From: Thermoplasmata archaeon
GTDB lineage: Archaea; Thermoplasmatota; Thermoplasmata; Lutacidiplasmatales; UBA184
DNA: 33,293 nt
Reading direction: 5' to 3'
Assembly: GCA_022749895.1 (NCBI GenBank)
Contig: JAKIWS010000017.1
Location: forward strand, 1 to 33,293
Shown: one piece after another, positions 2-26,361 of the stretch
Layout: every line of letters begins with the position of its first letter
How positions within the stretch are numbered: position 1 is the stretch's first letter
Notes under the pieces: generated by a model
The model's database searches: none
Told to the model about the DNA's origin: nothing
Seen by the model: the letters and a program-made list of their open reading frames with translations, nothing else
Program-made: the position numbers and the translations under genes

Positions 2-2986
2 GGGACGCCGGTCGTCCTCACGTTCACCATCGTCCGCGCGACGCTCCCGGGCGGGCCGTTCCAGGGCACGACGTACTTGACGCTGGACGCCGCGGCCGAC
101 GCGACGCACACGGCGCTCCAGAACAGCTACAACGGGGCACAGGCGACCGCGATCGGGAGCCAGTACTTCCAGCATTACCCCGCGCTCCTCTACGACGGTC
201 TCTTCGTCTTCCTGATGGCGGTCGGGATCGCAATGATCCTCCTCGCCTTCCTCTACGCCCCGCGCGTCGAGCGGTGGTTCATGAAGCAGACGAAGGAACC
301 GAAGAACCTCGCGGTCGGCCTCATGGGCGCGACGGCGTTGTTCGGCGGATTCTTCCTGCCGTTCTACCCGTGGCCCTACGTGCTGTTCATCGCCGGCGCG
401 GTGATGCTGATCGCCTGGAAGTTCCCGCAGCTCGCGCTGCTCGTCCTGGTGCTGTTCACCGCCCCGGAGGTGGCTTACCAATCCGGTACGCTGGGGTTCA
501 TCTTCCTGTTCGCGTCGATCCCGGTGCTGTTCGCCGCGCTCATCGACTGGCGGTTCGGGCTCGGGGCGTTCCTGACCCTGTTCCTCGCGCCGGTCGGGCT
601 CTCGTTCGTCGTGCCGGTGTTCCTCGCGATGATCTTCTCGCTGTACCTCGGTCTCGCGGTCGCGATCGCGGGCGGACTCATGATCTCGCTGTTCGTCACC
701 CTCGGGAACCTTCCCGTGCTCGGCTACTTGGTCGGTCCCGGGGCGACCGGTTCCCCGAGCCTGATCGCCGGCCATGCGGCCGCGCTCAATCCCACGCTCC
801 CGATCGAGTACTTCAGCTTCAATTCGGTCGGCCAGGCGTTCGGCTCGATGCTGAACCCGAACCCCCAGCTCCTGGGCATCGGCGGCGGGGGGGTCGGTTC
901 GATCGCGATCCCACTCATCGAGGTCGGAGCCTGGTGCTTCGCCGCCTGGCTCGTCACGACGGCGCTCAAGGACCGCGAGAAGCAGACGTTCAAGCAGGTC
1001 GTGCGGTACTCGGTGTACGCCGGGCTCGCGATCGCGGTCGTGACCCTGCTGGCCTTCGCGGCGTTCAGCTACACGAACTGGACGAACGTCGTCGTCTTCC
1101 TCATGGTCCCCGGGATGATGACGGCGGTCGCGGGATCGCTCGTCATCCGCGATGCGTTCGAGGCGTACTTCACGAGCCAGCTCGGGGGCGCGAGCGTCGG
1201 AACCCGCGTCTCGGAGATGCGGGGCCTCCAGAAGATCACGTTCGAGATGGTGGGCGGTCTTCACGATGTGAAGGCCGACATCAAGGAATCGATGATCATC
1301 CCGCTGATGCGGAAGGACGTCACGACGCGCTTCCGCCTCGAGCCGCCGAAGGGGATCCTCCTGTTCGGCCCGCCCGGCTGCGGGAAGACGATGCTGATGA
1401 AGGCGCTCGCGAGCGAGCTCGGGGTCGAGATGATCTCGATCAAGTGCAGTGATCTGATGAGCAAATGGTACGGTGAATCCGAGAACCGGGTCGCCGACCT
1501 CTTGCGGACCGCGCGCGAGCGGGCCCCGTGCATCCTCTTCATGGACGAGATCGACGCGGTCGCGAAGCGCCGGGACATGTACACCGCGGACGATGTCACG
1601 CCCCGGCTCCTGAGCATCTTGCTCTCGGAGATGGACGGGATCGACAAGTCCGCCGGGGTCATGGTCGTGGGCTCGACCAACAAGCCCGACCTGATCGACC
1701 CGGCGCTGATGCGACCCGGTCGGCTCGACAAGATCATCTACGTCCCGCCGCCCGACTTCAACGAGCGGATGGAGATCACCCACGTGCACCTCGTGGGACG
1801 GCCGGTCGCGAACGACATCGACTTGGCGGAAATCGCGAAGAAGACCGAGCGGTTCTCGGGCGCTGACCTCGCGAACCTCGTGCGGGAAGGGGCGACGATC
1901 GCCGTCCGGCGCGAGATGATGACCGGCGTGCGCGCCCCGATCGCGATGGACGACTTCCGCCAGATCATCGGCCGGATCAAGCCGTCGATCTCGCTCCGCA
2001 TGATCGCGGACTACGAGACGATGAAGCTGGATTACGAGCGGAAGATGCACCAGGTCCAGCGGATGGAGCGGAAGATCGTCGTCAAGTGGGACGATGTCGG
2101 CGGCCTGACCGACATCAAGCAGGCGATCCGGGAGTACGTCGAGCTGCCGTTGACGCGGCCCGAGCTCATGGAGAACTACAAGATCAAGACCGGGCGCGGG
2201 ATCCTGCTCTTCGGCCCGCCGGGCTGCGGCAAGACGCACATCATGCGCGCGGCCGCGAACGAGCTCAACGTTCCGATGCAGATCGTGAACGGTCCCGAGC
2301 TCGTGAGCGCGCTCGCCGGCCAGAGCGAGGCCGCGGTGCGGGACGTCTTGTACCGGGCGCGCGAGAACGCGCCGTCGATCGTCTTCTTCGACGAGATCGA
2401 CGCGCTCGCGAGCCGAGAATCGATGAAGACCCCGGAAGTCTCGCGCGCGGTGAGCCAGTTCCTGACGGAGATGGACGGTCTCCGCCCGAAGGACAAGGTG
2501 ATCATCATCGCGACGACGAACCGGCCGCAGATGCTCGACCCGGCGCTGCTGCGTCCCGGTCGTTTCGACAAGATCTTCTACGTGCCGCCGCCGGACCTGG
2601 ATGCGCGGCAGGACATCTACCGCATCCACATGAAGGGGGTCCCGAGCGAGGGCGCCATCGACTTTGGCGAGCTCGCGAAGAGGTCCGATGGGTTCTCCGG
2701 CGCCGACATCGCGTCCGTGGTCGACGAAGGGAAGCTGATCGCGCTGCGCGAGCAGCTGTCGGTCGAGCTCAACGAGAGCCCCGGCGCCCGACAAGGCGCC
2801 ATGGCGGGTCTCTTCACCGCGAGCGCGACCCCGACCGCGGCCTCCAAGATCGAGCCGATCTCGAAGGTCGTCGGCGTCCGCATGGACAACCTGCTGGAAG
2901 CCGTCGGGAAGACGAAGTCGTCGATCACGCGGGAAACCCTCGCTTGGGCGGAAGAGTTCATCCGGAGCTACGGAACGCGCGCGTAG
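2..2986 (+). CDS. Membrane-embedded Cdc48-like double AAA+ ATPase (5' partial)
   Basis: The reading frame is open from the window edge, so the true start lies upstream; the first possible in-window start is TTG at 77 and residues are counted from it. Residues ~37-358 contain about ten hydrophobic segments, with a longer polar loop at ~215-275. Two AAA+ modules follow. D1 has Walker A GPPGCGKT (~431) and Walker B ILFMDEID. D2 has Walker A GPPGCGKT (~713) and Walker B IVFFDEID. Both keep the paired arginines of the PALxRPGR motif, so both look able to hydrolyse ATP. No HExxH or other protease motif follows D2; the protein ends in a short helical tail. The modules resemble Cdc48/VAT unfoldases, but the usual soluble N-domain is replaced by membrane helices. 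A role in extracting or unfolding membrane proteins is inference. The residues before TTG-77 look like the end of a beta-rich, probably extracytoplasmic, segment. The stop is TAG. Confidence 0.9.
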   Translation, partial: GTPVVLTFTIVRATLPGGPFQGTTYLTLDAAADATHTALQNSYNGAQATAIGSQYFQHYPALLYDGLFVFLMAVGIAMILLAFLYAPRVERWFMKQTKEPKNLAVGLMGATALFGGFFLPFYPWPYVLFIAGAVMLIAWKFPQLALLVLVLFTAPEVAYQSGTLGFIFLFASIPVLFAALIDWRFGLGAFLTLFLAPVGLSFVVPVFLAMIFSLYLGLAVAIAGGLMISLFVTLGNLPVLGYLVGPGATGSPSLIAGHAAALNPTLPIEYFSFNSVGQAFGSMLNPNPQLLGIGGGGVGSIAIPLIEVGAWCFAAWLVTTALKDREKQTFKQVVRYSVYAGLAIAVVTLLAFAAFSYTNWTNVVVFLMVPGMMTAVAGSLVIRDAFEAYFTSQLGGASVGTRVSEMRGLQKITFEMVGGLHDVKADIKESMIIPLMRKDVTTRFRLEPPKGILLFGPPGCGKTMLMKALASELGVEMISIKCSDLMSKWYGESENRVADLLRTARERAPCILFMDEIDAVAKRRDMYTADDVTPRLLSILLSEMDGIDKSAGVMVVGSTNKPDLIDPALMRPGRLDKIIYVPPPDFNERMEITHVHLVGRPVANDIDLAEIAKKTERFSGADLANLVREGATIAVRREMMTGVRAPIAMDDFRQIIGRIKPSISLRMIADYETMKLDYERKMHQVQRMERKIVVKWDDVGGLTDIKQAIREYVELPLTRPELMENYKIKTGRGILLFGPPGCGKTHIMRAAANELNVPMQIVNGPELVSALAGQSEAAVRDVLYRARENAPSIVFFDEIDALASRESMKTPEVSRAVSQFLTEMDGLRPKDKVIIIATTNRPQMLDPALLRPGRFDKIFYVPPPDLDARQDIYRIHMKGVPSEGAIDFGELAKRSDGFSGADIASVVDEGKLIALREQLSVELNESPGARQGAMAGLFTASATPTAASKIEPISKVVGVRMDNLLEAVGKTKSSITRETLAWAEEFIRSYGTRA

Positions 2987-3122: not shown

Positions 3123-3479
3123 ATGGCCGAACCGTCCGGAAAGCCCGCCTCGACCGTCGTCGAGCCGAACGTCTATTTCGCGCTCGGCGTCGTGGGGGCG
3201 GTCGTCTTCCTCATCGGCGTCTTCAAGCCGCTCTTGGGACGACTCCCCTACAGCGGGTACCTCGGCATCGTCATCGCGGCCGCCGGCGGCGCCGTCGCGG
3301 TCTTCGGATTCGGTCGCTGGGTCGACGCGCGCAAGCCTCCCGCGCACCCTGCCCTCGCCTCCCCCGAAGAACGGGACCGGATCCGCTACTCGTCGAGTTT
3401 CGAAGTCTACGACCCTCGGGCACCGGAGAAACCCTCCCGCCCCGTCGGCCGCCGCCCTCGGGACCGGCCCCCGCGCTGA
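3123..3479 (+). CDS. Small two-helix membrane protein, unknown function
   Basis: This 118-residue protein starts at ATG 3123 and ends in TGA. It has a short N-terminal tail, two hydrophobic segments (about residues 18-40 and 44-66) and a basic, proline-rich cytoplasmic-looking tail of about 50 residues. I recognise no family. It lies 136 nt after the AAA+ gene and 27 nt before the large surface-protein gene on the same strand, so it is probably co-transcribed with the surface genes. It could be an accessory membrane subunit, but nothing in the sequence shows that directly. Confidence 0.65.
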   Translation: MAEPSGKPASTVVEPNVYFALGVVGAVVFLIGVFKPLLGRLPYSGYLGIVIAAAGGAVAVFGFGRWVDARKPPAHPALASPEERDRIRYSSSFEVYDPRAPEKPSRPVGRRPRDRPPR

Positions 3480-3506: not shown

Positions 3507-6500
3507 ATGACCGGCCGCCGGTTCGGGGCCGGCCCGACGATCCTCGTCGCGATCGTGATGGTCACGAGCCTCTGGGTCGCGCTCGGAACGAACGGGGCCG
3601 CTTCGATCGTCCCGGCGCCGCCCGCAAGCGCCCACGGGGCGCTTTCCGCTCACCCGACCGCACTTTCGACTCCGCCGCCCCGGGTGCACCCCTCGACGGT
3701 CCCGTGCCCTCCTCCTCCGCCGATCATCTATCCCGCGTACCACGCGGTGGGGAACGGCTACCCCCTTCAGCCGGACTTTTCGAGCCAAGGCAACTGCGCC
3801 CCGCTCGGGAACGACCAGGTCCACGCGTCGTTCTTCTCGAACGTGGCGGGCTCGGGGACCCACTTCACGATCCCGCTCTACCTCCCCGCGCTGGGGACCC
3901 AGGGCCAGCCGTGCAATTACAACGACGTCTACGTCGGGATCGTGGTCGGCGGCGACGGCTTGAGCATCAACACCCAGTCGTACGCGGTGGTCTCGTTCAC
4001 GCCGAACGTCGGCTGCCAGAACCAGAGTTCAAACACCCTGACGTACAGCGAGAACGCGATGGTCTGGGGGCTGTTCAACGCCTCCAAGATGTGGCCCGCC
4101 ACGGCGGCGACCTTCGCCTGCCCGAACGGCGGGGAGAGCTTCACCCGCGACAGCGCGTACTACTGCGAGCAGAACCAGGTCAACGCCGGCTCGGGTTCCC
4201 TCATCGCGTCGAGCCTCCCCTCGGCCACCTGGTACAACTTGACGTTCGTCGGCGGGGTCGGACCGTCAAACCCCCTCGGGTTCTTTGAGAACACGAGCGC
4301 CAGCGTCGGGGCGTCCCACAGTTACACCTTCAACGCTCTCAACACGAGCAACCACACCTACTACCCCTACTACCACAGCTCCTGCCTGGACGCGTGTCTC
4401 CTCAACTGGTCGACGTCGTTCGGTCTCGGGTTGGGCGCCGACCTCTGTTCAACGTACAACCCGACGCAGAACCCCGCCTGCAACTCCTACAACCAGTACA
4501 ACTGGGAGAGCGGTCCCCCGGTCGCCTGGGGGGTTCCGCACTTCTACACGGCGGGCGCCTGGCGCGGCGACTATGCGACGTTCGCTCCGGAATCGACGTC
4601 GGGGGTCTGCAACAGCTTCGCGGCCGCCGGGACGGTCGCCCCGTGCTACAACGCGGACGCGAACGGAGGGACGGGGTACTATCCGACCTTCACCTTCAAC
4701 GGCACCTCGCTCAATTTCGGCACCTCGTGGCCGTGGACGACCGAGAACTTCGGCACCGCGATCAAGGAGTACCAGTCGAACACCTACCAGAAGGACTTCA
4801 CGCCGTTCTGGGTCGACCACGACGCGAACTCGAGCCGCGGCGGCTTCGTGACGCCCGGGAGCTCGGTCAACGTGAGCGCGCGCGTACAGGACCTCGGCAA
4901 CGTGAGCTCGGTCTCGCTGAACTACCAGCTCCCCAACGCCGCCTGGAGCAACGTCTCGATGGTGCGGAAGGCCGGGACGCCGACGTACGGGATCTACAAC
5001 GCAACGATCCCCGGCAGCGGCGGTAACGGGCTCATCCACTTCTACATCTCCGCCGTCAACAACGCCAGCGTCACGGCGTTCCTGGGCCACAACGACACCG
5101 TGTCCCGGGGCCCGCTCCCCCACTTCCAGGTGCTGCTCCAGACCACCCCGGGCAACTGCGGCAACGTCTGGTTCAACGGGACGGCGTACCGGAACAACAC
5201 CTACCTTTCGGAGCTGCCCGGCGTCTACGCGGTCAAGGGGAACCCGTGCTGGCCGTACGTCTTCTTCAACTGGTCGCGGTCCGGCGGCGTCGTCCTGGGT
5301 TCCTACAACCAGACCACGCAGGCGCTCGTGACCTCGAACGGTACGCTCGACGTCATCCTGCTGTACATCCGGCCGACCGACAACATCACCGTCGCGACCT
5401 CCCCCGCGATCTGCGGCACCGTCAACATCGACGGCAACGCGTACACGAACGGGCAGACGCTCGGTCTCCTCGACAACCTTCCCAACACCATCGGCCTCTT
5501 CTCCGGCTGCGGCGGCTACGTCTTCGGTGGATGGGGGATCCTCGGCAACTTCACGATCCTCGGACGGTCGCTGACGCCCCACGGGAACGGGACGATCATC
5601 GCGAATTTCATCCCCTCCGGAACGGCGGTCCAGGTGCTGTTCCAGACGTCGCCCACGAGCTGCGGGGGCATCGGCTACAACAACACGGGGTACGTGAACG
5701 GTGAGAACCTGAACTTCACGCCCGGGACGTACGCCATCGCCCCGCTGCCGTGCGCGCACTACGGGTTCCTCAAGTGGAACGCCAGCGCCGGCGTCAGCGT
5801 CGCCGGGTCGTCGATGACCGTGACGAGCGCGGGGGTCGTCCGGGAAGTCAACTACCACTTGACCGAGGTCACGCTCGTGACGGTGCCCGGATTCTGTGGG
5901 TACATCACCTTCGACGGCACCAACTACCGCAATGGGAGCGTGGTCGTCGTCCAGAACAATTCGACGCACCTCATCTCGGCGGTGAGCTGCACCAACTACT
6001 ACTTCTTCGGCTTCAACACGACGCCCGGCCTCAGCGTGAGCGGACACGTCTTCACGATCAACTATTCCGGCGTGCTCAAGTCGATCAATATCCCAGGGAC
6101 GAGCGCGGTGTTCATCGGGTTCATCACCGACCCGCCGTTCTGCGGCACGATCAATTTCGAATCCAGCACGTTCGTGAATGCGAACTACACCTACGTGCCC
6201 CCGGGCACCGTCGCCCCGATCTCGGCGAACACGTGCCGGAACTACGGCTTCGTCACGTGGATCACGACCGGCGGGATCACGATCGTGGGCGGGAACGCCT
6301 ACGTGAACACCTCCGGGTCGATCGACGCGGTGTTCCGCCCGCTCGCGGATGTCTTCCTCTACACCGACCCCGCGGGGTGTGGCTCGATCGACCTCGGGGG
6401 TCGGATCTACGGGAACAACGCGACGGCGACCGTCCCCGAGACCGCGGTCTTCAGCCTCGCCGCCATTCCGTGCACCGGCTACGCGCTCACCGCGTGGGAG

Positions 6501-7286
6501 AACTCCAGCGGCGCGACGATCACGGGCAGCAACATCTCCTTTGCCACGACCTCGATATTGACGGCGGTGTTCACGCAGGTCGGCTACACCGTCGGCTTCA
6601 CGATCAACCCCCCCAACTGCGGGGACATGACCGTCCAGGGCCGCGTCGTCGTGAACGGTTCCACCTTCGCGCTCTCGCGCGGTGTGTATGCCATCAAGGC
6701 GACCCCGTGCGCCGGGGATCACCTCGCCGGCTGGTCGACCAACGGCAGCGTGAACGTGAGCGGGAGCCACCTCTACGTGAACGGGAGCGGCAACGTCACG
6801 GCGACGTTCCAGCCGGTCCCGCCCTCCGTGAGCCTGTCGGTGCCCACGGGCTCGTTCACGGGGTTGCCGGTCTCGTTCATCGCGGCGGTCGCCGTCCTCG
6901 TGCCCCCGTACAACTATACGTACCAGTGGGCGTTTGGCGACGGCAGTCCTCCCGAGACGACGTTCGTGAACTTTACCGACCACGTCTACGGTCACACCGG
7001 CACCTTCGCGGTCGGGGTCACCGTCACGGACGGCTTCAACCGGACCGCCCACGCGAACTCGACCGTCAGCGTCGTGGCGCAGAACACGACCTCCGCCGGG
7101 TCGACGCTGATCCCCGGCCTGACCGCGATCGGCCTCGCGTTGGGGGTTCTTCTGGTCGCGCTCGCCTTCGTGGGGTACTGGCGCCGGCGCCACCCCGCCA
7201 CGGAGGCCGAGCCCGCCGCTCCGCCGCCCCCCGCGACGACCGACGAACTCGATGTTTCCCCAGAAGAGATGGAGACGAAACCATGA
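3507..7286 (+). CDS. Large secreted, membrane-anchored protein with seven Cys-paired InlB-B-like repeats and a PKD domain
   Basis: The 1259-residue protein starts at ATG 3507. It has a Sec-type signal segment (about residues 11-33), then a Cys- and Asn/Thr-rich N-terminal domain (~60-540) that resembles the N-terminal half of the protein at 10874. Residues ~542-1104 hold seven repeats of about 80 residues. Each has a Cys-Gly near its start, a second Cys about 30-35 residues later, an aromatic/Gly-x-W core and a final beta strand ending in F. This pattern matches the divergent InlB B-repeat family (Flg_new-like), with two added cysteines that probably form a disulfide. A PKD domain (FGDGS, ~1108-1195), one transmembrane helix (~1201-1225) and an acidic, proline-rich tail follow. 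Many N-x-S/T sequons suggest glycosylation. The role is likely surface adhesion or matrix; no catalytic motif was seen. Its TGA overlaps the next start as ATGA. Confidence 0.88.
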   Translation: MTGRRFGAGPTILVAIVMVTSLWVALGTNGAASIVPAPPASAHGALSAHPTALSTPPPRVHPSTVPCPPPPPIIYPAYHAVGNGYPLQPDFSSQGNCAPLGNDQVHASFFSNVAGSGTHFTIPLYLPALGTQGQPCNYNDVYVGIVVGGDGLSINTQSYAVVSFTPNVGCQNQSSNTLTYSENAMVWGLFNASKMWPATAATFACPNGGESFTRDSAYYCEQNQVNAGSGSLIASSLPSATWYNLTFVGGVGPSNPLGFFENTSASVGASHSYTFNALNTSNHTYYPYYHSSCLDACLLNWSTSFGLGLGADLCSTYNPTQNPACNSYNQYNWESGPPVAWGVPHFYTAGAWRGDYATFAPESTSGVCNSFAAAGTVAPCYNADANGGTGYYPTFTFNGTSLNFGTSWPWTTENFGTAIKEYQSNTYQKDFTPFWVDHDANSSRGGFVTPGSSVNVSARVQDLGNVSSVSLNYQLPNAAWSNVSMVRKAGTPTYGIYNATIPGSGGNGLIHFYISAVNNASVTAFLGHNDTVSRGPLPHFQVLLQTTPGNCGNVWFNGTAYRNNTYLSELPGVYAVKGNPCWPYVFFNWSRSGGVVLGSYNQTTQALVTSNGTLDVILLYIRPTDNITVATSPAICGTVNIDGNAYTNGQTLGLLDNLPNTIGLFSGCGGYVFGGWGILGNFTILGRSLTPHGNGTIIANFIPSGTAVQVLFQTSPTSCGGIGYNNTGYVNGENLNFTPGTYAIAPLPCAHYGFLKWNASAGVSVAGSSMTVTSAGVVREVNYHLTEVTLVTVPGFCGYITFDGTNYRNGSVVVVQNNSTHLISAVSCTNYYFFGFNTTPGLSVSGHVFTINYSGVLKSINIPGTSAVFIGFITDPPFCGTINFESSTFVNANYTYVPPGTVAPISANTCRNYGFVTWITTGGITIVGGNAYVNTSGSIDAVFRPLADVFLYTDPAGCGSIDLGGRIYGNNATATVPETAVFSLAAIPCTGYALTAWENSSGATITGSNISFATTSILTAVFTQVGYTVGFTINPPNCGDMTVQGRVVVNGSTFALSRGVYAIKATPCAGDHLAGWSTNGSVNVSGSHLYVNGSGNVTATFQPVPPSVSLSVPTGSFTGLPVSFIAAVAVLVPPYNYTYQWAFGDGSPPETTFVNFTDHVYGHTGTFAVGVTVTDGFNRTAHANSTVSVVAQNTTSAGSTLIPGLTAIGLALGVLLVALAFVGYWRRRHPATEAEPAAPPPPATTDELDVSPEEMETKP

Positions 7287-10200
7287 AGTACAACTACCCC
7301 GAACGGGCGCCCGCACGTATGACGACGAACCAACTGTCGACGCTTCAATCATCGGTCGCCGACCGCCGCCGGCCTTGGGCCCTCGCGGGGGTCGTGGTGT
7401 TGACGGTCCTGATGCTCACGAGCCTCGTTCCCTCCCTACTTGCTTCCGGCCACGCCGCCTCGGGTGCCCACCCCGGTGCACTCGGAACGGCGCTCGCGCC
7501 CTCGGTGGCACCGCCATCGTCGACGACCGTGACGATCCCCCGCGCGAACCTCAACGCCCTCCAGGCGAGCCATGCGCAGGTCCCGATCAGCCAGGTCGTC
7601 CGATCCGAAGCCTCCCTGCGGGCTTCCGGGGTCCCTCTTTCTCAGTGGTTCGGGGGCTCCGTCGGCGGAGGTCCCGCGGTGGGGGCTTCCCCGTCCTTGG
7701 CCCCGGTGCGTTCGACGGTCCTCCCCGCCTCGGGCTCCACGAACTCCAACTTCCTGATCGCCGGGTCGAACTGCACGGACGAGAGTTCCGTGGTTCAAGC
7801 CGGCTCCAACAACCGCTCGCTCCTCGCCGTCGGCGATTCCCTTCTCGGCACGTACAACGGAACGGGAGGGAGTCCGTGCTACACGCCGGCTCCGACGCCG
7901 TTCTTCATCAAACATGGGATCAGTGCGGCGTTCCGCTCGACCGATGGCGGCCGCACCTGGGCCACGGATTACTTGGGGCTCGCGACCCAGTGGACGAAGG
8001 TCGGGGACGCGTCGAACGGGTCGATCAACCACGGGGAGGGGACCGTCGCGAGTTCCCCTTCGAACCTTTCGCTGTTCGCGGCGACGTACTTCCCCCAGTG
8101 CTTCTGGCTCGGCGCGACGTTCGATAGCAACTGCACCACGACCGCTCAGATGAACCAGTTCTACAACAACTGGGGCGTCGACGTGGGGCGGTCGACCGAC
8201 GGCGGCGTGAGCTGGAGCGCCCCGGTGCAGGTCTCCGGGATTCCCACCTTCATGCTCTACAACCTTCCGTCGTGCTCCGGGATGAACGGGACGTTCACCA
8301 ACTACGCGAACGTGACGGAGCGCCCGTGGCTCGCGTTGAACGGCTTCAACCACGTCGCGGTCGTGGGTTGGGACATCCTGCACTACGCGATCAACTACAC
8401 CGCGTGCACGATCGGCGCCGTCTCGGCGTACGTCCAGATCTCGGTGTCGGCGGATGGCGGTCTCACCTGGTCCGTCCCCCGAACGATCAGCAGCAACGGT
8501 GCGGAGTCGTTCCAGGTGGCGGTCGGCCCAGCGCCCACGTACCCGATCCACATCATCGCCCTCGATTTCAACAACGCCACGGTCCAAGCCTCGAACGGGG
8601 AACTCGACCTTTCCATCCTCTACGGGAAATCGACGACCAACGGCACCTCGTTCCCGGCGATGGCCGATGTCGGCGGGGCGCTGGCGGTCCACAATGCTCC
8701 GGTCACGACGCCCGCGTCGTGGCTCGGGTTCTCCTTCCCGAGCCTCGCCGTGGACAACTGGACGGCGTCCGCCCATGTCGGAAGCGTCTACATCGCCTGG
8801 GCCGACAACCAGAGCGGGAGCCTCCAGGGGCACGCCGCGATCGACCTGATCCGCAGCACCAACGGCGGCGGGACGTTCACCACTCCGGTCCGGATCTCGC
8901 TTCCCGGCAATGCGCACACCTACTTCCAGCCGAAGGTCACCGTCGGGCCCGACGGCAAGGTCTGGGTCGTCTACGTCGGCAACGACCCCTCGACGGGCTA
9001 CTACCGAACGTACGGTATCTTCTCGACCGACGGCGGCGCGACGTGGTCGGCCCAGTTCGTGGTGACGGACCAGGATAGCATCCCCAATGTCACGCAACGG
9101 ATCGGGTTCAATCTCGGCCTCGTCGCGACGACGGCCGGGACGTTCGCGACCTGGAGCGACTGCCGGACGACCCTCTGCACCACCACGAGCGACCCCCGCT
9201 TCTTTGACGGCAACCTCTACGCGGCCGAGTTCCGCCCGATCTCCATCACGAGCAACGCGGTCGGGGTCCCGTTGACGGTCGCCGTGACCGGCTTCTCGCT
9301 CCCCGTCAAGCTACCGAACGTGACCGCCGTCGATGACGGCATCCTGGTCGGCGTGTCGGCGCCCTCGACGTTCCCCGATGTCCCGGGCTACGTCTGGGCG
9401 TTCCAAGGGTACAGCGGCGCGGTCACGTCCCCGAACCAGGTGGCGTCGTTCACGGCGGCCGGAGCCCCGTCGCTCACCGTGACGTACGTCGCCGTCCAGG
9501 CGTCGTGGATCACCGGGACGTTCTTCCCGCGCACCTCCTCCAGCCTGCTCACGGTGGAAAACGTAGCGGTGGCGATGTCGCCCTTCAACGCGACCACGCT
9601 CACGTTCAACTGGTCGGTCGCCGCGGGCCAGACGTACACCATCAACGCGAGCGCGGGGCCAAAGTACCAATCGATCATCGGGCAGATCGTAACGACCACG
9701 CCCGGTCAGGCGAGCCCGCTTCACATCAACCTGCTCCGGACGCTCGGATGGATCGCAGGACGGGCGAACCCGGCCAATGCCACGATCAAGATCAACGGGA
9801 CCGTGGTGACACCGAACCCGACCACGGCGATCTACAACTACACCGCCGGATTCCAGTGGGGGTACTACTGGGTCAACGGGACGTCGCCCGGACTGGCGCC
9901 GTCGTACAACTACATCATCGTCAACCCCGGGGTCACGACGAACGTGCCGATCACCCTCGGCGGCGGCTGGATCGTCGGCGCGGTCGCGCAGCCGAAAGCG
10001 ACGCTCCGGGTCGGCGTGGACGGGATGCCGCTCAACTCGACGACGCTGGTGAACGGCGTCTTCAACATCTCCGTGCGGGGCGGCTTCCACATGGTCACCG
10101 CGACGGAGACCGGCTACAACCTCTCGCGGCAGAACGTCCTCGTCCATCCGGGGCAAAGCACGCTCGTGAACATCACGCTCACGAACAAGGGCTGGATCTC

Positions 10201-10738
10201 CGGGCTCATCAGCCCGCAGGCGGCGCTTTCGAAGGCGTTCCTGAAGGTCACGAACAAGACCGCCCTGGGCGGATTCCAGACGATCGATACCGCGACGGGC
10301 ACCTTCAACGTGAGCGTGGCGGGTGGCTACAACTGGACGGTCAACGTCACCGCGGCCGGCTACAACGCGGCCCAAGCCGTGGTCTACGTGACCGCGGGCA
10401 ACGCTTCGTCGGGGAACCCCGTCTCGCTCACCCTGACGCCGACGAGCAGCTGCACGACGAACTGCCCGCCCCCACCGTGCACCACGAACTGCCCCACGAC
10501 GAGCGCCGGGCCGAACAACCTGCTGCTCTACGGGGTCATCATCGCGGTCGTCGTCGTGGCCGCCATCGTCGCCGCGCTGCTCCTGATGCGCGGACGGCGG
10601 GGCGGGGGCGGCGGAAGCGGCGAGGAGCCGGCGGAAGACCCGGCGCTCGGCGAGCAGACCTACCAGTCGTCGCCGACCGCGGACCTGCCCAAACTGCAGT
10701 CGGACGGGTCGTTCTCGGAAGGGGAGCCTCCGCAGTAA
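7283..10738 (+). CDS. Secreted Asp-box (BNR) beta-propeller protein with PEGA/carboxypeptidase-regulatory-like domains and C-terminal anchor
   Basis: The start is ATG 7283, overlapping the preceding TGA (ATGA), with GGAG eight bases upstream; ATG 7319 is an alternative. The protein is 1151 residues. A hydrophobic signal segment lies near residues 32-55. Asp-box motifs of the form S-x-D/N-G-G-x-T/S-W/F occur near residues 219, 303, 389, 524 and 581, marking a sialidase/BNR-type propeller over about 120-640. Residues ~800-1050 are beta-sandwich repeats (G-W-I-x-G openings, G-Y motifs) like carboxypeptidase-regulatory or PEGA domains. A Cys/Pro linker with two CTTNCP motifs near 1055-1070 precedes one transmembrane helix (~1079-1102) and a Gly-rich, acidic tail. 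Sialidase catalytic residues (FRIP motif, arginine triad) were not recognised, so the propeller is called as a binding scaffold. It shares its architecture with the - strand protein at 14363-16951. Confidence 0.88.
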   Translation: MKYNYPERAPARMTTNQLSTLQSSVADRRRPWALAGVVVLTVLMLTSLVPSLLASGHAASGAHPGALGTALAPSVAPPSSTTVTIPRANLNALQASHAQVPISQVVRSEASLRASGVPLSQWFGGSVGGGPAVGASPSLAPVRSTVLPASGSTNSNFLIAGSNCTDESSVVQAGSNNRSLLAVGDSLLGTYNGTGGSPCYTPAPTPFFIKHGISAAFRSTDGGRTWATDYLGLATQWTKVGDASNGSINHGEGTVASSPSNLSLFAATYFPQCFWLGATFDSNCTTTAQMNQFYNNWGVDVGRSTDGGVSWSAPVQVSGIPTFMLYNLPSCSGMNGTFTNYANVTERPWLALNGFNHVAVVGWDILHYAINYTACTIGAVSAYVQISVSADGGLTWSVPRTISSNGAESFQVAVGPAPTYPIHIIALDFNNATVQASNGELDLSILYGKSTTNGTSFPAMADVGGALAVHNAPVTTPASWLGFSFPSLAVDNWTASAHVGSVYIAWADNQSGSLQGHAAIDLIRSTNGGGTFTTPVRISLPGNAHTYFQPKVTVGPDGKVWVVYVGNDPSTGYYRTYGIFSTDGGATWSAQFVVTDQDSIPNVTQRIGFNLGLVATTAGTFATWSDCRTTLCTTTSDPRFFDGNLYAAEFRPISITSNAVGVPLTVAVTGFSLPVKLPNVTAVDDGILVGVSAPSTFPDVPGYVWAFQGYSGAVTSPNQVASFTAAGAPSLTVTYVAVQASWITGTFFPRTSSSLLTVENVAVAMSPFNATTLTFNWSVAAGQTYTINASAGPKYQSIIGQIVTTTPGQASPLHINLLRTLGWIAGRANPANATIKINGTVVTPNPTTAIYNYTAGFQWGYYWVNGTSPGLAPSYNYIIVNPGVTTNVPITLGGGWIVGAVAQPKATLRVGVDGMPLNSTTLVNGVFNISVRGGFHMVTATETGYNLSRQNVLVHPGQSTLVNITLTNKGWISGLISPQAALSKAFLKVTNKTALGGFQTIDTATGTFNVSVAGGYNWTVNVTAAGYNAAQAVVYVTAGNASSGNPVSLTLTPTSSCTTNCPPPPCTTNCPTTSAGPNNLLLYGVIIAVVVVAAIVAALLLMRGRRGGGGGSGEEPAEDPALGEQTYQSSPTADLPKLQSDGSFSEGEPPQ

Positions 10739-17118: not shown

Positions 17119-18546
17119 GTGCAGCCATCTCCTGAGCCAAAGCTACCGGAGGTGCCCGACGGCTCTCTACCGTCGACCGTGGCTCACGAGGCGGCGGTCC
17201 CGCTTTCGGAGCGGCCGGCCGCCGGGGGAGGGGAGCTCGCCTCGGCGGGGCCTCCCCCGTCCAACTCCGGGCGCGGGACGGCCGCCGATGTCTTCGACGC
17301 CGTCGTGAACTACTCTTCAGAACTTTTCAAAGGCAATTTCGAGATCCTTCGGGAGTCATACGTCCCGTCGAGGTTGCCGCACCGTGAGCATCAGATCCGA
17401 CAGGTCGCGGAGGTCCTTGCCCCGGCGCTGAAAGGGAGCGTGCCGTCGAATCTTCTCATCTACGGGAAGATCGGGACCGGGAAGACCGCGGTCGTCGCCC
17501 AGGTCCGGCTCGACATGCAGCGGCGCTCGGACGCCCACGGGAACGTCGCCTTCGTCAATGTCAACTGCGCGTCGATCGACACGCCGTACAGTCTGCTCCA
17601 GACGATCGGGAACTCCTTCGCGGAGACGGAAGAGCAGCGGATCCCGACCGGCTGGTCGCTCGACCGCGTGCAGCAGGCGATGCGCGAACTCATGGACGAG
17701 CGCGGGGGAACGCTCGTGCTCATCCTCGACGAGATCGACCGCCTCGTCAGCCGCAGCGGCGACAGCGTGCTCTATACCCTGAGCCAGCTCAATAACGACC
17801 TCGAGCGGGGCCGGCTCGCGATCGTCGGGATCTCGAACGACCTCAAGTTCACCTCCAACCTCGATGCTCGGGTCCGCAGCCGGCTCAACGAGGAGAAGAT
17901 CCTGTTCCCGCCGTACGATGCGCCGCAGCTCCAGGACATCCTGCGGGACCGGGCTCGGGACGTCTTCCGCGATGGCGTGCTCGATGCGGGCGTCATCGAG
18001 CGGTGCGCGGCGTACGCGGCGCTCGAGAACGGGGACGCCCGCCGCGCGCTCTCGCTCCTCCGGGTCGCCGCTCAGGTCGCCGACCGCGAGAAGTCCAAGC
18101 GGGTGACGAGCGACCACGTCGTCAAGGCGAAGAGCCGCCTCGAGCGCGACATCATCCTCGACTGCGTCCGGACCCTGCCCCAGCATTGCAAGGTGCTCCT
18201 GTACGCGATTCTACAGGCGTACGAACGACGCCGTACGGGCGTCCTCACGGGGGAGGTCTACGAGGGCTACGCGCGGCTCTCGCAAAAGCTCGGGCTGCCC
18301 CCGCTCCACTCGCGGAGCATCTCCAACTATCTGACCGAGCTCGAGAGCCTCGGCCTCATTCGCGCGACGATCGTCTCCAAGGGCCGGGGCGGCCGGACCC
18401 GCGAGATCGTTGTCGACGTCCCCACCGCGGAGACGATCCCGGCCCTCGAGGAGGACGAGTTGCTCGCCCAGCTCGCCCGCCGGCGCAACCTTTCGCAGAC
18501 GATCCTGACCAATTTCGACAACCCGAACCGCGGCGGACCGTACTGA
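17119..18546 (+). CDS. cdc6: Orc1/Cdc6 replication initiator ATPase
   Basis: The protein is 475 residues from GTG 17119; no earlier in-frame start was found. About 55 low-complexity residues precede the conserved region. The AAA+ core has Walker A GKIGTGKT (~116) and Walker B LILDEID (~200-206), then a sensor-1 region (GISND) and the sensor-2 lid with NGDARRAL, typical of Orc1/Cdc6. Residues ~345-450 form the C-terminal winged-helix DNA-binding domain. The family binds origin recognition boxes and loads MCM helicase at archaeal origins. It is divergent from the surface-protein gene and followed after 109 nt by a toxin-antitoxin pair. I saw no convincing origin boxes or AT-rich unwinding element beside it, so it may be one of several paralogs away from the active origin. 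Confidence 0.95.
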   Translation: MQPSPEPKLPEVPDGSLPSTVAHEAAVPLSERPAAGGGELASAGPPPSNSGRGTAADVFDAVVNYSSELFKGNFEILRESYVPSRLPHREHQIRQVAEVLAPALKGSVPSNLLIYGKIGTGKTAVVAQVRLDMQRRSDAHGNVAFVNVNCASIDTPYSLLQTIGNSFAETEEQRIPTGWSLDRVQQAMRELMDERGGTLVLILDEIDRLVSRSGDSVLYTLSQLNNDLERGRLAIVGISNDLKFTSNLDARVRSRLNEEKILFPPYDAPQLQDILRDRARDVFRDGVLDAGVIERCAAYAALENGDARRALSLLRVAAQVADREKSKRVTSDHVVKAKSRLERDIILDCVRTLPQHCKVLLYAILQAYERRRTGVLTGEVYEGYARLSQKLGLPPLHSRSISNYLTELESLGLIRATIVSKGRGGRTREIVVDVPTAETIPALEEDELLAQLARRRNLSQTILTNFDNPNRGGPY

Positions 18547-21085: not shown

Positions 21086-22597
21086 ATGGAGAACGACCTC
21101 ACCGCGGAGATTCTCCTCAGCTCGGCCGCGGTCCCCTCGGCCCTGATCGACGAGCTCCTGCCTCCGCTCGCCGCGGACGCTCTCCAAAAGGCCCTCGGAA
21201 ACCGGGGGGAGGGACGGCTGGTCCGGCATACGTTGAACGGCGATCACCTCACCCTCGAAATCGCGACCACCGGCGGACGTCCGCACCAGCCCCTGCTCTC
21301 GATTACACGTCGCCTCGGCGAGGAGCTGGGCCGCCGGGCGAAGGTCGGCATTCGCTCGGTCACCGTCCCGAAGTACCGGATCACCTTCCCGGTCGACCCG
21401 ATGCCGACCCGCCCGGTCCCGCTCGCGATCCCGCATCGGCTCGCCTTCGCCGACGGACGCGCCACCCTCGAATTGCACGACCTCCCCGAAGAGGCGCTGC
21501 GGGACAATTGGCCCGACCGGGCGGCGACGCTCGTTGAGGCGAAGGTCCGCCGCCAATCGTACGCCGGGAAGGAGCAGGCGTGGGAACTGATCGACCAGAG
21601 CCCACCCCGCGTGCACGTCGGAAACGACGATCCTACCGAGGCGATGCTGAAGCGGAACTGGGTCCGGAGCGGTCCGACCAAGGGCAAGTGGTTCCTCGGG
21701 CCTCTCGCCGCCCATCTGCTGCGGACGATGGAACGGATCGCCCGGGAGGAGGTGCTGATCCCCCTCGGTTTCGTGGAGGTCGTGCAGCCGCACCACGACT
21801 CGTTCGATATCCTCCTCAAGACCGGACACTTGGAGGGCTTGCCGGGCGAGTTCTACTACGTCACGGAACCCAAGTCCCGCGACCCGGCGGACTGGGAGCG
21901 GTTCACCGACCTTGTGGCGATCACCCGCAAGGTGCCCCACGAGGAGCTCGCGAAGCTCGTGAGCCCGCCGTCCGCGATCGCGTGCTACGCGCAGTGCCCC
22001 ACGATCTACTGGTGGCTCTCGGGCCGGACGCTGGCGGTCGACGACCTGCCGCTCAAGGTCTACGACCGGGCCGCGATCTCGAACCGGTACGAGAGCGGGG
22101 GGCGCCACGGACTCGAACGCGTCGACGAGTTCCACCGGATCGAGCCGGTCTACCTCGGGACTCCGGAACAGCTCGTGGCGCTCCGGGAGCAACTCCTCGC
22201 CCGGTACCGGCACGTGTTCGATTCGATCCTGGAGCTCGAGTGGCGCACCGCCTGGGTCACGCCGTTCTACCTGCAGCAGAGCGGGGGCGTCGGGCTCGAA
22301 GAGCCGGGGCAGCGGGTCAAGGGAACGATCGACTTCGAGGCGTACCTCCCGTACCGGGGCCCCCGCGACAAGGCCGAGTGGCTGGAGTTCCAGAACCTCT
22401 CGATTGTCGGCGACAAGTACACCCGGCCGTTCACGATCCGGGCGCAGAAGGGGGAACTGTGGTCGGGGTGCTCCGGGATCGGACTCGAGCGGTGGCTCAC
22501 GGCGTTCCTCGCGGAAAAGGGCCTCGAGCCGAACGACTGGCCCGCGGAGTTCCGGCGCTACGCCGGCGAGCTGCCCAGGGACGTGAAGTTCCTCTAG
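21086..22597 (+). CDS. serS: Seryl-tRNA synthetase, methanogenic (type 2) form
   Basis: The protein is 503 residues from ATG 21086, the usual size of the atypical SerRS known from Methanosarcina barkeri and other methanogens. It carries the family's characteristic N-terminal tRNA-binding domain and a class II core. Segments diagnostic of that type are CYAQCP, RYESGG, ERVDEFHRIE, LEFQN and LWSGCSGIGLERW, and it ends in PRDVKFL as the Methanosarcina protein ends in a similar motif. The active-site zinc ligands of this form (Cys, Glu, Cys) correspond to Cys300, Glu348 and Cys462, all present. The enzyme charges tRNA-Ser with serine. Canonical SerRS has a coiled-coil arm and no such zinc site. 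The Hef gene follows after 44 nt. Confidence 0.93.
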   Translation: MENDLTAEILLSSAAVPSALIDELLPPLAADALQKALGNRGEGRLVRHTLNGDHLTLEIATTGGRPHQPLLSITRRLGEELGRRAKVGIRSVTVPKYRITFPVDPMPTRPVPLAIPHRLAFADGRATLELHDLPEEALRDNWPDRAATLVEAKVRRQSYAGKEQAWELIDQSPPRVHVGNDDPTEAMLKRNWVRSGPTKGKWFLGPLAAHLLRTMERIAREEVLIPLGFVEVVQPHHDSFDILLKTGHLEGLPGEFYYVTEPKSRDPADWERFTDLVAITRKVPHEELAKLVSPPSAIACYAQCPTIYWWLSGRTLAVDDLPLKVYDRAAISNRYESGGRHGLERVDEFHRIEPVYLGTPEQLVALREQLLARYRHVFDSILELEWRTAWVTPFYLQQSGGVGLEEPGQRVKGTIDFEAYLPYRGPRDKAEWLEFQNLSIVGDKYTRPFTIRAQKGELWSGCSGIGLERWLTAFLAEKGLEPNDWPAEFRRYAGELPRDVKFL

Positions 22598-22641: not shown

Positions 22642-24414
22642 GTGCCGTCCCGAAAGCCCGCTCCCGTCCAACATCGGCTGGAAGAGTTTGGAGGCAGCTT
22701 CGAGCCCGCCGCGGCGTCCTCCCCCCCGCGAGAACCCGAGACGCCGCCCCCCCTCCCGGGTATTTGGCAGGTCGAGGACGGCTGGGTCGTCCACCCCCTC
22801 CTGGCCGACCGCACGATCCGGGCGCTGCCGTTCCAGATCGATCTGGCCCGCATCGGGCTCGTCGAAGACCTGCTCGTGGTCCTGCCGACCGGCCTCGGCA
22901 AGACGGTGATCGGCGCCCTGGAGGCGGCCGAGATCCTTCGACGTCGCGCGGGGAAGGTACTGTTCCTCGCCCCGACGCGGCCGCTCGTGGTCCAGCACGC
23001 GGAATCGTTCGCGCGATGGTTCCGATCGGTCCGACGCGCGCGGTTCACCGGCACCGTGCGACGGGTCGTTCGCGAGGGCGCCTGGGACGCCGCCCAAGTG
23101 GTGTTCGCCACGCCGGAGATCGTGGTGAACGATCTGGCGAGCGGCGAGTACGACCTCAAGGAGGTCGCGCTCGTCATCTTCGACGAGGCCCACCACGCGG
23201 TCGGCAAGTACGCCTACGTCCCCCTCGCCGAGCGGTACCGCGCCGAGCGGCCGAGGGACGGCCGGGTCCTGGGTCTCACCGCGTCGCCGGGGGGCAAAGA
23301 CGCCCACATCGAGGAGGTGGTCGGCCATCTCGGTGTCGCGCGGATCGAGGCGCGCAGCCGGGAAGACGATGGGGTGCGCCAGTACGTCCAGGCGATCGAC
23401 GTGTCGTTCCAGTGGGTCACCCTCCCGCCGGAATCGCTCCGCATCCAGGAGGGGATCCGGTCGGCGTCCCACGAAGTGGCTCGTCGGTTGCAGAAGATGG
23501 GCTATCTCCGCAAGAAGCCGATCGCCAACCTCTCGGTCAAGGACTTGATCGACCTCCGGGTCGAGATCTTCGCGCGACCCGGGCCGATGACCCGGAAGTT
23601 CGGCCCGTTGTTCCACCAGCTCATTCTGCTCCATCTGCACCACGCCCTCGAACGTCTCGAGACGCAGGGGGTCGAGCCGTTCGTTCAGTACCTCGACCGG
23701 TTGGCCGCCAAGGAGAAACCGAGCCGGGGCGACCTCGCCGTGCTGAAGATTCCCGGCGTGGTGAAGGCGCGCACGGAGGCCGCGGCGTTCCTGGCCCGCC
23801 CGCACACGCCGTCGCACCCGAAGCTCGACGCGCTCGTCGAGGTCGTGCGTCGCGAGCTCGCGTCGGGACGGCCCCGCCCACCCCGGGTCCTGATCTTCGC
23901 TCAGTACCGGGACACGATCCACGGAATCCAGGAGGTCCTCACGCGGGAGGGGGTGACGGTCGGACGTTTCGTCGGCCAATCGCGTCGCGACCGCGACGAC
24001 CCCGGCATGAGCCAGAAGGAGCAGGGCCGCGTGTTGGACGCGTTCCGCCAGGGGGCGTTCCCCGTCCTCGTCGCCAGCAGCGTCGCCGAAGAGGGGTTGG
24101 ACGTCCCGGACGTCGACCTCGTCGTCTTCTTCGAGGCGGTCCCCAGCGAGATCCGGGCGATCCAGCGGCGCGGCCGGACCGGACGTAGTTCCGTCGGCCG
24201 CGTCCTCGTCCTCCTGACGGAAGGCACGCGGGACGTCGGGTACCAGGCGGCGGAGGCCCGCCGCGAGCGCGCCATGGGGCGGATCGTCCGCCGTCTCTCG
24301 GCGGAGAGCCGCCGCCGCTCCGCGGGGGAGCGTGCGGCGTCCTCCGTGGGCGAGGAGGATCCCCCGGTTCATCCCCCCCGGCCGGCGCGCCGGCGGGACG
24401 TCCCGGTCGATTGA
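22642..24414 (+). CDS. hef: Hef/FANCM-type SF2 helicase, nuclease domain absent
   Basis: The start is GTG 22642; the protein has 590 residues. Motif I PTGLGKT (~83-89), motif Ia APTRPLV, motif II DEAH (181-184), motif III LTASPG and motif VI QRRGRTGR (508-515) define an SF2 helicase. The VVQHAESF and DEAHHAVGKYAY segments and the large helical insert between the RecA folds (~270-400) are typical of archaeal Hef and FANCM. The family remodels stalled replication forks. Euryarchaeal Hef normally continues into an XPF-type nuclease (ERKxxxD) and HhH domain, but here only about 60 charged, low-complexity residues follow the helicase. Hef without nuclease may act with a separate XPF-like nuclease elsewhere. 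Confidence 0.92.
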   Translation: MPSRKPAPVQHRLEEFGGSFEPAAASSPPREPETPPPLPGIWQVEDGWVVHPLLADRTIRALPFQIDLARIGLVEDLLVVLPTGLGKTVIGALEAAEILRRRAGKVLFLAPTRPLVVQHAESFARWFRSVRRARFTGTVRRVVREGAWDAAQVVFATPEIVVNDLASGEYDLKEVALVIFDEAHHAVGKYAYVPLAERYRAERPRDGRVLGLTASPGGKDAHIEEVVGHLGVARIEARSREDDGVRQYVQAIDVSFQWVTLPPESLRIQEGIRSASHEVARRLQKMGYLRKKPIANLSVKDLIDLRVEIFARPGPMTRKFGPLFHQLILLHLHHALERLETQGVEPFVQYLDRLAAKEKPSRGDLAVLKIPGVVKARTEAAAFLARPHTPSHPKLDALVEVVRRELASGRPRPPRVLIFAQYRDTIHGIQEVLTREGVTVGRFVGQSRRDRDDPGMSQKEQGRVLDAFRQGAFPVLVASSVAEEGLDVPDVDLVVFFEAVPSEIRAIQRRGRTGRSSVGRVLVLLTEGTRDVGYQAAEARRERAMGRIVRRLSAESRRRSAGERAASSVGEEDPPVHPPRPARRRDVPVD

Positions 24415-24684: not shown

Positions 24685-26361
24685 CTGGCGTACTCTCTCT
24701 ACCCGGACGTCATCCTAACCCTTCTCCTGGGTTTCCTCCTCGCCTGGCCGCTGGGCCGGTACATGGCCCGAGTGTACTTGGGTCGACCGTCGCTGTTCGA
24801 CCGGGTCCTCAACCCGATCGAACGGGGACTCTACTGGCTGCTCGGCACCGACCCCCGGCGGATGATGGGCTGGCGCGAGTACGCGGCCTCCCTCATCCTC
24901 TGCAACGTCGCCGCCATCGTGTTCGTCTACGTGCTGCTCGTCGAGCAGGGCTCCCTCCCGTGGAACGCCTGGGCGGTCCCCGGGATGCACTGGGACCTCG
25001 CGCTCCACACGTCGTCGTCGTTCGTCACGAACACCGACTATCAGCACTACACACCCGAATCGTCGGTCTCCCTCCTGGGGTCGCTGCTGGGCCTTCAGAT
25101 GCTGATGTTCCTCTCCGCTGCGAGCGGCCTCTCCGCGCTCGTGGGCCTCGTTCGGGGGTTCATCCGCCGCGACGGCACCGTCGGGAATGTCTGGGTCGAC
25201 CTCGTCCGGACGTTCACCCGGATCCTCCTTCCGATCTCGCTCCTCGGAGCGGGGCTCCTCGCCCTCGCCTCCGTGCCCCAGACCTGGCACACGGCGGTGA
25301 CGATCTTCCCGCTCACCGGGGGTCGGGAGTCGGTACCGATCGGGCCGATCGCCTCGTGGGACAGTATCGAATTCCTCGGGACGAACGGCGGCGGCTACTT
25401 CGCGGCCAACGCGGCCCACCCGTTCCAGAACCCGACCGCGGTCACGAACTTCCTCTCGATCCTCCTGATGATGCTCATCCCGTTCGCGACGCCGTTCATG
25501 TTCGGGGCGATGGTCCGCCGCCCCGGCGAGGCGTGGCCGTACATCGGCGTGATCCTGACGGTGTTCCTGATCGCGCTCGGTCTCTTCATCTACTTCCAGT
25601 CCGCGAACACGTTCCTCCGCGGGATCCCGGTCGACCAGAGCCACGGGTACCTCCTCGGGGCCGAGGCCCGCTTCACCTTGCCCGAAAGCGCGCTGTTCAA
25701 CGTCACGAGCATCTACAGCAACGTCGGCGCGGTATCGATGTCGCTGGGCTCCCTCACCCCGGGGGCGCAGATGGTCCTCCTCTGGGGGATGTTCCTGCAG
25801 TCGACCCCCGGCGGGGAGGGGACCGGGTTCGGGGTCCTGCTGCTCAACGCCGTCCTCGCGATCTTCGTCGGGGGACTCATGGTCGGCCGCACGCCCGAGT
25901 ACCTGGGGAAGAAGCTCGGCCGGACGGAGGTCAAGTGGGCCGCCGTGACGCTGCTCGCGCACCCGTTCGCGATCTTCGTGCCGTTGGCGCTCGCCTACGT
26001 ACTGGGACTCGCGATGCCCGCCGTCGGGTCGGGCGCCCAGCCGTTCACGGTCATCCTGTACGAGTTCACGAGCGAATCCGCGAACAACGGGAGCGGGATG
26101 GCGCCGATCTCCGACAATACCGTGTTCTTCAACGTCGCCGGGACGTTGATCATGCTGTTCGGTCGGTACCTGCCGATCGTCGCGATGCTGGCGATCGGGG
26201 GGTCGCTCGCCCGCCAGGCGCCGAACCCTCCCGGTCCGGGGACCCTCAAGACGACGTCGGTGACGTTCACGAGCTATCTCACCGTCTTTCTCCTCGTCAT
26301 CACCGGGCTCCTCTTCCTCCCCGTCCTGGCTCTGGGACCCTTGTCCCAGTTCGGGTTGTGA
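24685..26361 (+). CDS. kdpA: KdpA, potassium-translocating subunit
   Basis: The product is a polytopic membrane protein of the SKT family that carries K+ through four filter-bearing repeats. Visible filter-region segments are SFVTNTDYQHY, LGTNGGGYFAAN, YSNVGAVS and ESANNGSG, with the GRTPEYLGKK cytoplasmic signature and the ending LALGP. The first ATG (24763) would cut off the first helix. The family-conserved N-terminus begins with YPDVILTLLLGFLLAWPLGRYMA, of which only a part is listed here for orientation: YPDVILTL then WPLGRYMA. No ATG, GTG or TTG exists between the KdpF stop and this point. CTG at 24685 places PLG at residues 22-24, exactly as in Escherichia coli KdpA, and gives 558 residues against its 557. 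I therefore propose CTG as the start. The TGA overlaps the kdpB start. Confidence 0.9.
   Translation: MAYSLYPDVILTLLLGFLLAWPLGRYMARVYLGRPSLFDRVLNPIERGLYWLLGTDPRRMMGWREYAASLILCNVAAIVFVYVLLVEQGSLPWNAWAVPGMHWDLALHTSSSFVTNTDYQHYTPESSVSLLGSLLGLQMLMFLSAASGLSALVGLVRGFIRRDGTVGNVWVDLVRTFTRILLPISLLGAGLLALASVPQTWHTAVTIFPLTGGRESVPIGPIASWDSIEFLGTNGGGYFAANAAHPFQNPTAVTNFLSILLMMLIPFATPFMFGAMVRRPGEAWPYIGVILTVFLIALGLFIYFQSANTFLRGIPVDQSHGYLLGAEARFTLPESALFNVTSIYSNVGAVSMSLGSLTPGAQMVLLWGMFLQSTPGGEGTGFGVLLLNAVLAIFVGGLMVGRTPEYLGKKLGRTEVKWAAVTLLAHPFAIFVPLALAYVLGLAMPAVGSGAQPFTVILYEFTSESANNGSGMAPISDNTVFFNVAGTLIMLFGRYLPIVAMLAIGGSLARQAPNPPGPGTLKTTSVTFTSYLTVFLLVITGLLFLPVLALGPLSQFGL

Follow-up and report, generated by a model that had tools for sequence, protein, structure and literature searches.

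A membrane-embedded double-AAA protein of Thermoplasmatota, encoded with and in some lineages fused to Ig-like surface proteins

Background

Descriptions of archaeal AAA machines that pull on membrane proteins are, to our knowledge, few, with LonB as the main example. A 33,293-nucleotide stretch of DNA from an archaeon of the Lutacidiplasmatales (hereafter the window; GenBank assembly GCA_022749895.1, contig JAKIWS010000017.1, positions 1 to 33,293) opens with a gene that raises the question of what a protein with two AAA modules placed directly behind a large membrane domain might act upon, and on which side of the membrane. The initial annotation had described the product as a Cdc48-type double ATPase fused to about ten hydrophobic segments, and had proposed for it either a dislocase passing its substrates to the proteasome or a motor for the neighbouring surface proteins. 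In the open-access full-text literature we found no description of such a membrane double-AAA family.

Results and discussion

Architecture of the protein and its relatives

The gene and its parts are as follows, all on the + strand:

2..2986, +: double-AAA protein with a membrane domain; 994 codons, truncated at the 5' end by the contig edge
2..193, +: end of an extracytoplasmic ectodomain (aa 1-64), the rest of which lies beyond the contig edge and is seen in the relatives L016-L028
194..1189, +: membrane domain (aa 65-396) with nine modelled transmembrane (TM) helices and a re-entrant pair at aa 183-211, without a Pfam or PDB-fold match
1232..1966, +: AAA module D1 (aa 411-655), Pfam AAA match with lid
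1367-1390, 1460-1483 and 1532-1555, +: D1 Walker A, aromatic pore loop SKWYGESE and Walker B
2078..2791, +: AAA module D2 (aa 693-930), Pfam AAA match with lid
2213-2236, 2306-2329 and 2378-2401, +: D2 Walker A, non-aromatic pore loop SALAGQSE and Walker B
2792..2983, +: C-terminal region; the protein ends in SYGTRA and lacks an HbYX motif

The reading frame is cut off on its 5' side by the start of the contig. Its product contains two AAA modules with their lids (Pfam AAA, 3.7e-86), and Walker A and Walker B are intact in both. The membrane AAA protein is also encoded on 13 other Thermoplasmata contigs, one of them named Candidatus Lutacidiplasma silvani, with 61-92% identity over the membrane part; hence the frame is neither an artefact nor a chance occurrence. 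Full-length relatives, of about 1200 aa, show a Pro/Ala-rich N-terminal tail, a first helix (TM1), an ectodomain of about 155 aa, the membrane domain, D1 and D2 in that order, and so supply the N-terminus that the window lacks, namely TM1 and most of the ectodomain. These relatives qualify the earlier statement that the protein has no soluble N-domain: no N-domain family appears among the Pfam matches shown, but an additional TM helix and an extracytoplasmic domain do precede the membrane part. The stated absence of a protease domain is borne out by the same set of Pfam matches, and a membrane protease was accordingly rejected as a candidate.

An AlphaFold2 model of the membrane domain, built on an alignment of 37 relatives, reached a mean pLDDT of 82.9 and a pTM of 0.82. 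It places nine TM helices and the re-entrant pair within aa 65-396, so that the predicted succession of about ten hydrophobic segments and two intact AAA modules is upheld by the model, the Pfam matches and the Walker motifs alike. Read by the positive-inside rule, the modelled helices would place the AAA modules on the cytosolic side of the membrane, with one long loop exposed on the other. Four of the loops assigned to the cytosol and the AAA-proximal end carry 11-25 Lys and Arg per 100 residues, against 0-1.8 in the loops assigned to the outside; a fifth inside loop, a short one beside the re-entrant pair (MIFSLYL), has no charge and lends the topology no support. From this distribution we infer the arrangement of membrane domain and cytosolic AAA modules. 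A Foldseek search of the PDB with the membrane-domain model returned no match at E<=0.001, and the same search with the model of a surface protein described below returned 349, which indicates that the fold search works. The modelled membrane domain thus appears to be of no recognised fold, although a blank search with a model derived from 37 sequences falls short of proving a new one. That the protein is a membrane-embedded AAA motor or unfoldase is well supported.

D1 as the conserved motor and the erosion of D2

The two modules differ markedly in their conservation. In all 38 D1 modules covered by our motif table the pore loop WYG is identical, as are Walker A and the RPGR Arg-finger motif; the table omits only the D1 of L016, which is cut short by the end of its contig. 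Walker B of D1 keeps DE in 36 of the 38. The other two, at the class-level loci L073 (970-3582) and L077 (10230-12917), have DDLE in place of DEID, and both of these loci keep the ectodomain as a separate gene; judged by sequence, the activity of their D1 ring is uncertain.

The pore loop of D2 is the non-aromatic LAG throughout the window's order, and beyond that order D2 is degenerate or lost. Its Walker A is degenerate in L070, L073 and L077, and the module is absent from L071, L074-L076, L078, L079 and L081-L083. The sequence of L080 stops before D2, for which reason it was left out of this count. At L072, a separate frame just after the AAA gene (6432-7217) encodes D2-like sequence, apparently the relic of a broken-off D2. 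As D1 is kept everywhere and D2 is degenerate or absent in several lineages, it is D1 that has been retained as the motor, and D2 can be dispensed with. The aromatic pore motif that D1 preserves has been tied to substrate threading (PMC5511170).

As regards ancestry, D1 matches D2 of VAT with 235 bits and D1 of VAT with 177, and D2 likewise matches VAT D2 (216 bits) better than VAT D1 (186 bits). In a tree of 81 modules, obtained by a short search and rooted at the midpoint only, D1 and D2 form two clades of their own outside soluble Cdc48 and PAN (SH-aLRT 99 and 98). The label Cdc48-type therefore holds for the fold and for the closest solved relatives, but not for descent, since both modules fall outside the Cdc48 D1 and D2 clades.

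A conserved surface-protein operon

Downstream of the AAA gene, the window continues with three genes of the same strand:

3123..3479, +: small protein of 118 aa with two predicted TM helices, whose position is conserved in the window's genus and in nearby genera
3507..7286, +: giant single-pass surface protein of 1259 aa with a PKD domain and a Pro/Glu-rich cytosolic tail; homologous genes occupy this position in related loci
7283..10738, +: second giant single-pass surface protein, of 1151 aa, likewise with homologues at this position in related loci

The search for homologs and their neighbours that the initial annotation had suggested recovered the same membrane part elsewhere, together with a surface-protein operon conserved across classes. 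Gene calls in the related loci were made in this analysis, with a model trained on the AAA gene, and the contigs, being from metagenome-assembled genomes, may hold errors. Within the family and order to which the window belongs, the AAA gene is directly preceded, on the same strand, by two genes for single-pass surface proteins. The intergenic gaps mostly measure 11-50 bp but reach 409 bp at some loci, according to which start codon is taken. At most loci a small multi-TM gene lies 3' of the AAA gene, and the whole set is flanked by genes for giant single-pass surface proteins. The two giants of the window match 18 (3507-7286) and 12 (7283-10738) genes in other loci, mostly at the same place; overall, the giants vary between lineages and share no common tail motif. 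Among the small downstream proteins, no relationship is detectable between those of the window's genus and the others, which are related to one another.

The model of the upstream surface protein (pLDDT 82.4) comprises tandem beta-sandwich (Ig-like) domains, one further beta domain and a C-terminal TM helix. Both upstream proteins end in a charged tail: among the 291 complete genes at these loci, 38 have a C-terminus of the form [KRQ][KR][IV][TS][LV], and every one of the 38 is a copy of one or other upstream surface gene. A search of the window's genome, which is 83% complete, gave no match to the upstream surface gene.

Other elements of the neighbourhood differ from lineage to lineage. Where the ectodomain is fused, as set out below, a gene for a von Willebrand A (vWA) protein lies directly upstream of the AAA gene (at L074, PF00092 with 8.9e-11). 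A tail of the KVxVGA type is seen on the gene upstream of the AAA gene at L071 (493 aa), L074 (465 aa, the vWA protein) and L075 (434 aa), and sits instead on the small TM protein at L069 and L066. In the window's genus, a protein of about 700 aa ending in GxGRFE or similar precedes the surface genes (L025 2947-5091 and relatives); its match to the vWA proteins of other classes is confined to 67 N-terminal columns. DUF4350 (PF14258), a flavodoxin-like subunit, gave no match in the neighbours scanned, which are a part of all neighbours.

Fusion and co-occurrence

The tie between motor and surface protein goes beyond gene order. In L070-L072, L074-L076 and L078-L081 the AAA protein itself starts with an ectodomain. 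Profile comparison of this fused ectodomain with the separate upstream protein gave an HH probability of 99.9 and an E-value of 2.8e-36 over 339 columns that include the TM helix, against 1.6% for the vWA neighbour used as a control. The ectodomain is kept as a separate gene in the class-level loci L073 and L077, and the fused state requires two changes on the D1 tree.

The two components also occur together. The membrane AAA protein was found in 29 of 390 genomes of the phylum Thermoplasmatota, spread over several classes. A profile of the upstream surface protein matches in 27 of these 29 and in none of the 361 genomes that lack the AAA protein (E<=1e-8); five of the latter give matches at 5e-7 to 7e-6 only. 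Among the 29, the profile misses the window's genome and G344, in both of which the AAA gene lies at a contig end. Fisher's test puts the co-occurrence at 1.2e-39, a figure that ignores kinship through shared descent. Seven same-genus genomes, 91-100% complete, lack both the membrane AAA protein and the upstream surface family.

Proposed function and the alternatives to it

The reading that we prefer, and to which we would give an even chance, is that the protein forms the ATP-driven core of a dedicated cell-surface protein complex and is not a general quality-control ATPase. The AAA modules would assemble, as is known of their family, into a hexameric ring beneath a ring of ten-helix membrane domains. 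The Ig-like single-pass surface proteins, whether encoded upstream or fused, may be permanent subunits that bind surface clients outside the cell; we take them as subunits because it is improbable that a motor would use up, as a substrate, an ectodomain fused to its own chain. In the membrane-proximal D1 ring, the WYG pore loops would grip a disordered cytosolic tail and pull on it with ATP, if threading proceeds as elsewhere among AAA proteins. Such pulling might serve to extract the operon-encoded surface proteins, to remodel them, or to help insert and assemble them. D2 may hydrolyse or merely bind ATP, probably without threading, as a regulatory ring that has been eroded or lost in several lineages. 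The conserved tails of the upstream proteins could be assembly interfaces rather than handles.

The main competitor, which we regard as unlikely though worth serious attention, is an archaeal membrane dislocase that extracts misfolded or surplus membrane proteins and releases them to soluble Cdc48 or PAN, which with the 20S proteasome would degrade them. An AAA unfoldase with an aromatic D1 pore loop, joined directly to a membrane domain and lacking a protease domain of its own, fits such a system, and possible partners are at hand: 20S proteasome genes are present in all seven hosts tested, and released clients could reach the full-length soluble Cdc48 encoded in the window's genome and in nine of ten other hosts tested. 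However, the membrane AAA protein ends without HbYX, whereas the Cdc48 of the host ends in IYR, and its patchy occurrence, even within a genus, is unlike that of a housekeeping system; these two observations make direct feeding of the proteasome less likely. That the gene is so constantly linked, or else fused, to a single type of surface protein also speaks against a general dislocase. Between the two roles originally proposed, the conservation of the operon across classes and the fusion thus favour a motor for the neighbouring surface proteins, and the hand-over to the proteasome is weakened. Rather improbable, in our view, is a signalling or mechanical switch in the manner of MoxR-vWA pairs, in which ATP hydrolysis would change the state of an Ig-like/vWA adhesion complex without threading. 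The Ig-like ectodomains and the vWA gene next to the fused AAA genes are in keeping with it, and a predicted archaeal system of vWA, Ig-like, 2-3 TM and MoxR AAA proteins is on record (PMC5898192), but the invariant aromatic WYG of D1 points to threading, the role linked to this motif (PMC5511170).

It might further be supposed that a Cdc48/VAT protein merely had its N-domain replaced by a membrane domain, within the Lutacidiplasmatales only, VAT and p97 being the closest solved relatives. Such a protein would hardly have two modules that are both nearer to VAT D2 than to VAT D1 and that form separate supported clades outside soluble Cdc48 and PAN; moreover, distant classes carry the protein with one module, and soluble Cdc48 coexists with it in the hosts. 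Given the module tree and the genome distribution, we set this derivation aside as highly improbable. A 2016 census had found generally one Cdc48 type in prokaryotes (PMC5070193). Two other candidates were also rejected: a viral origin, as no relative occurs in viral contigs, and a defence system, the PADLOC matches (IetA, TRIP13) falling on AAA modules in general.

Returning to the dedicated surface complex, a bolder formulation, which we offer tentatively and with more doubt than belief, is that Thermoplasmatota possess a separate class of membrane AAA+ machine, distinguished by a membrane fold of its own and by Ig-like ectodomain subunits dedicated to it. Spending ATP in the cytosol, it might export giant surface proteins, assemble them or act on them mechanically outside the cell, and would then amount to a novel system of secretion or surface assembly. 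The family combines a Cdc48-class motor, a membrane domain of no recognised fold and a putative extracellular recognition part, in some species within a single chain, and one polypeptide could then serve to study how ATP hydrolysis inside is coupled to protein handling outside. It also provides concrete hypotheses of function for the giant surface-protein operons of uncultured soil archaea.

Other genes of the window

Elsewhere the window encodes: 1) an Orc1/Cdc6 replication initiator (17179-18546, +; TIGR02928, 395 bits), near which a replication origin may lie. 2) A serine--tRNA ligase-like protein of the rare archaeal type (21086-22597, +), with a tRNA_bind_4 domain and a PRK00960 score of 454 bits, below the cut-off of 611. 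3) A Hef-like helicase (22642-24414, +), whose match is limited to the helicase portion, positions 4-517 of a 781-position model. 4) A KdpA-KdpB-KdpC potassium pump operon (24763-29197, +), in which KdpA and KdpB pass their cut-offs and KdpC scores below its own.

Comparison with known systems

The best model matches of the AAA part are CDC48, PAN and FtsH. With Cdc48 and VAT (the p97 class), its best solved relatives by sequence, the protein shares two tandem AAA modules with lids and the classical Walker, sensor and Arg-finger motifs. It differs in that a membrane domain and ectodomain stand in place of the soluble double-psi barrel N-domain, in its score against TIGR01243 (CDC48) of 537.6 bits, where the cut-off is 802.65, and in its D2 pore loop without an aromatic residue, its lack of HbYX and the placement of its modules outside the Cdc48 D1 and D2 clades. 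As in FtsH and the membrane AAA proteases, a cytosolic AAA module directly follows N-terminal membrane helices, but there are about ten helices here and not two, two AAA modules, and a score of 453 bits against the FtsH cut-off of 600; no M41 zinc peptidase is found, there being no peptidase among the matches shown and no sequence left for one after D2. Bcs1 has a single AAA module and a small membrane anchor. This membrane-anchored AAA ATPase, a homo-heptamer, moves protein across a membrane (PMC10567702). LonB is the membrane-attached AAA+ machine of archaea (PMC9263693); its membrane anchor is a segment within the AAA+ module, and it has a protease of its own, whereas the present protein has an N-terminal membrane domain and lacks a protease.

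By composition, the closest described analogue is the system in the neighbourhood of arCOG01314, with its vWA proteins, Ig-like anchored surface proteins, small 2-3 TM proteins and an AAA ATPase, predicted to act in secretion or remodelling (PMC5898192). Its AAA protein belongs to the MoxR/GvpN family, and arCOG01314 is absent from Thermoplasmata (PMC5898192). The present protein scores 29.7 bits against the GvpN model, where 266.8 are required, and is a Cdc48-class AAA protein with a built-in membrane domain.
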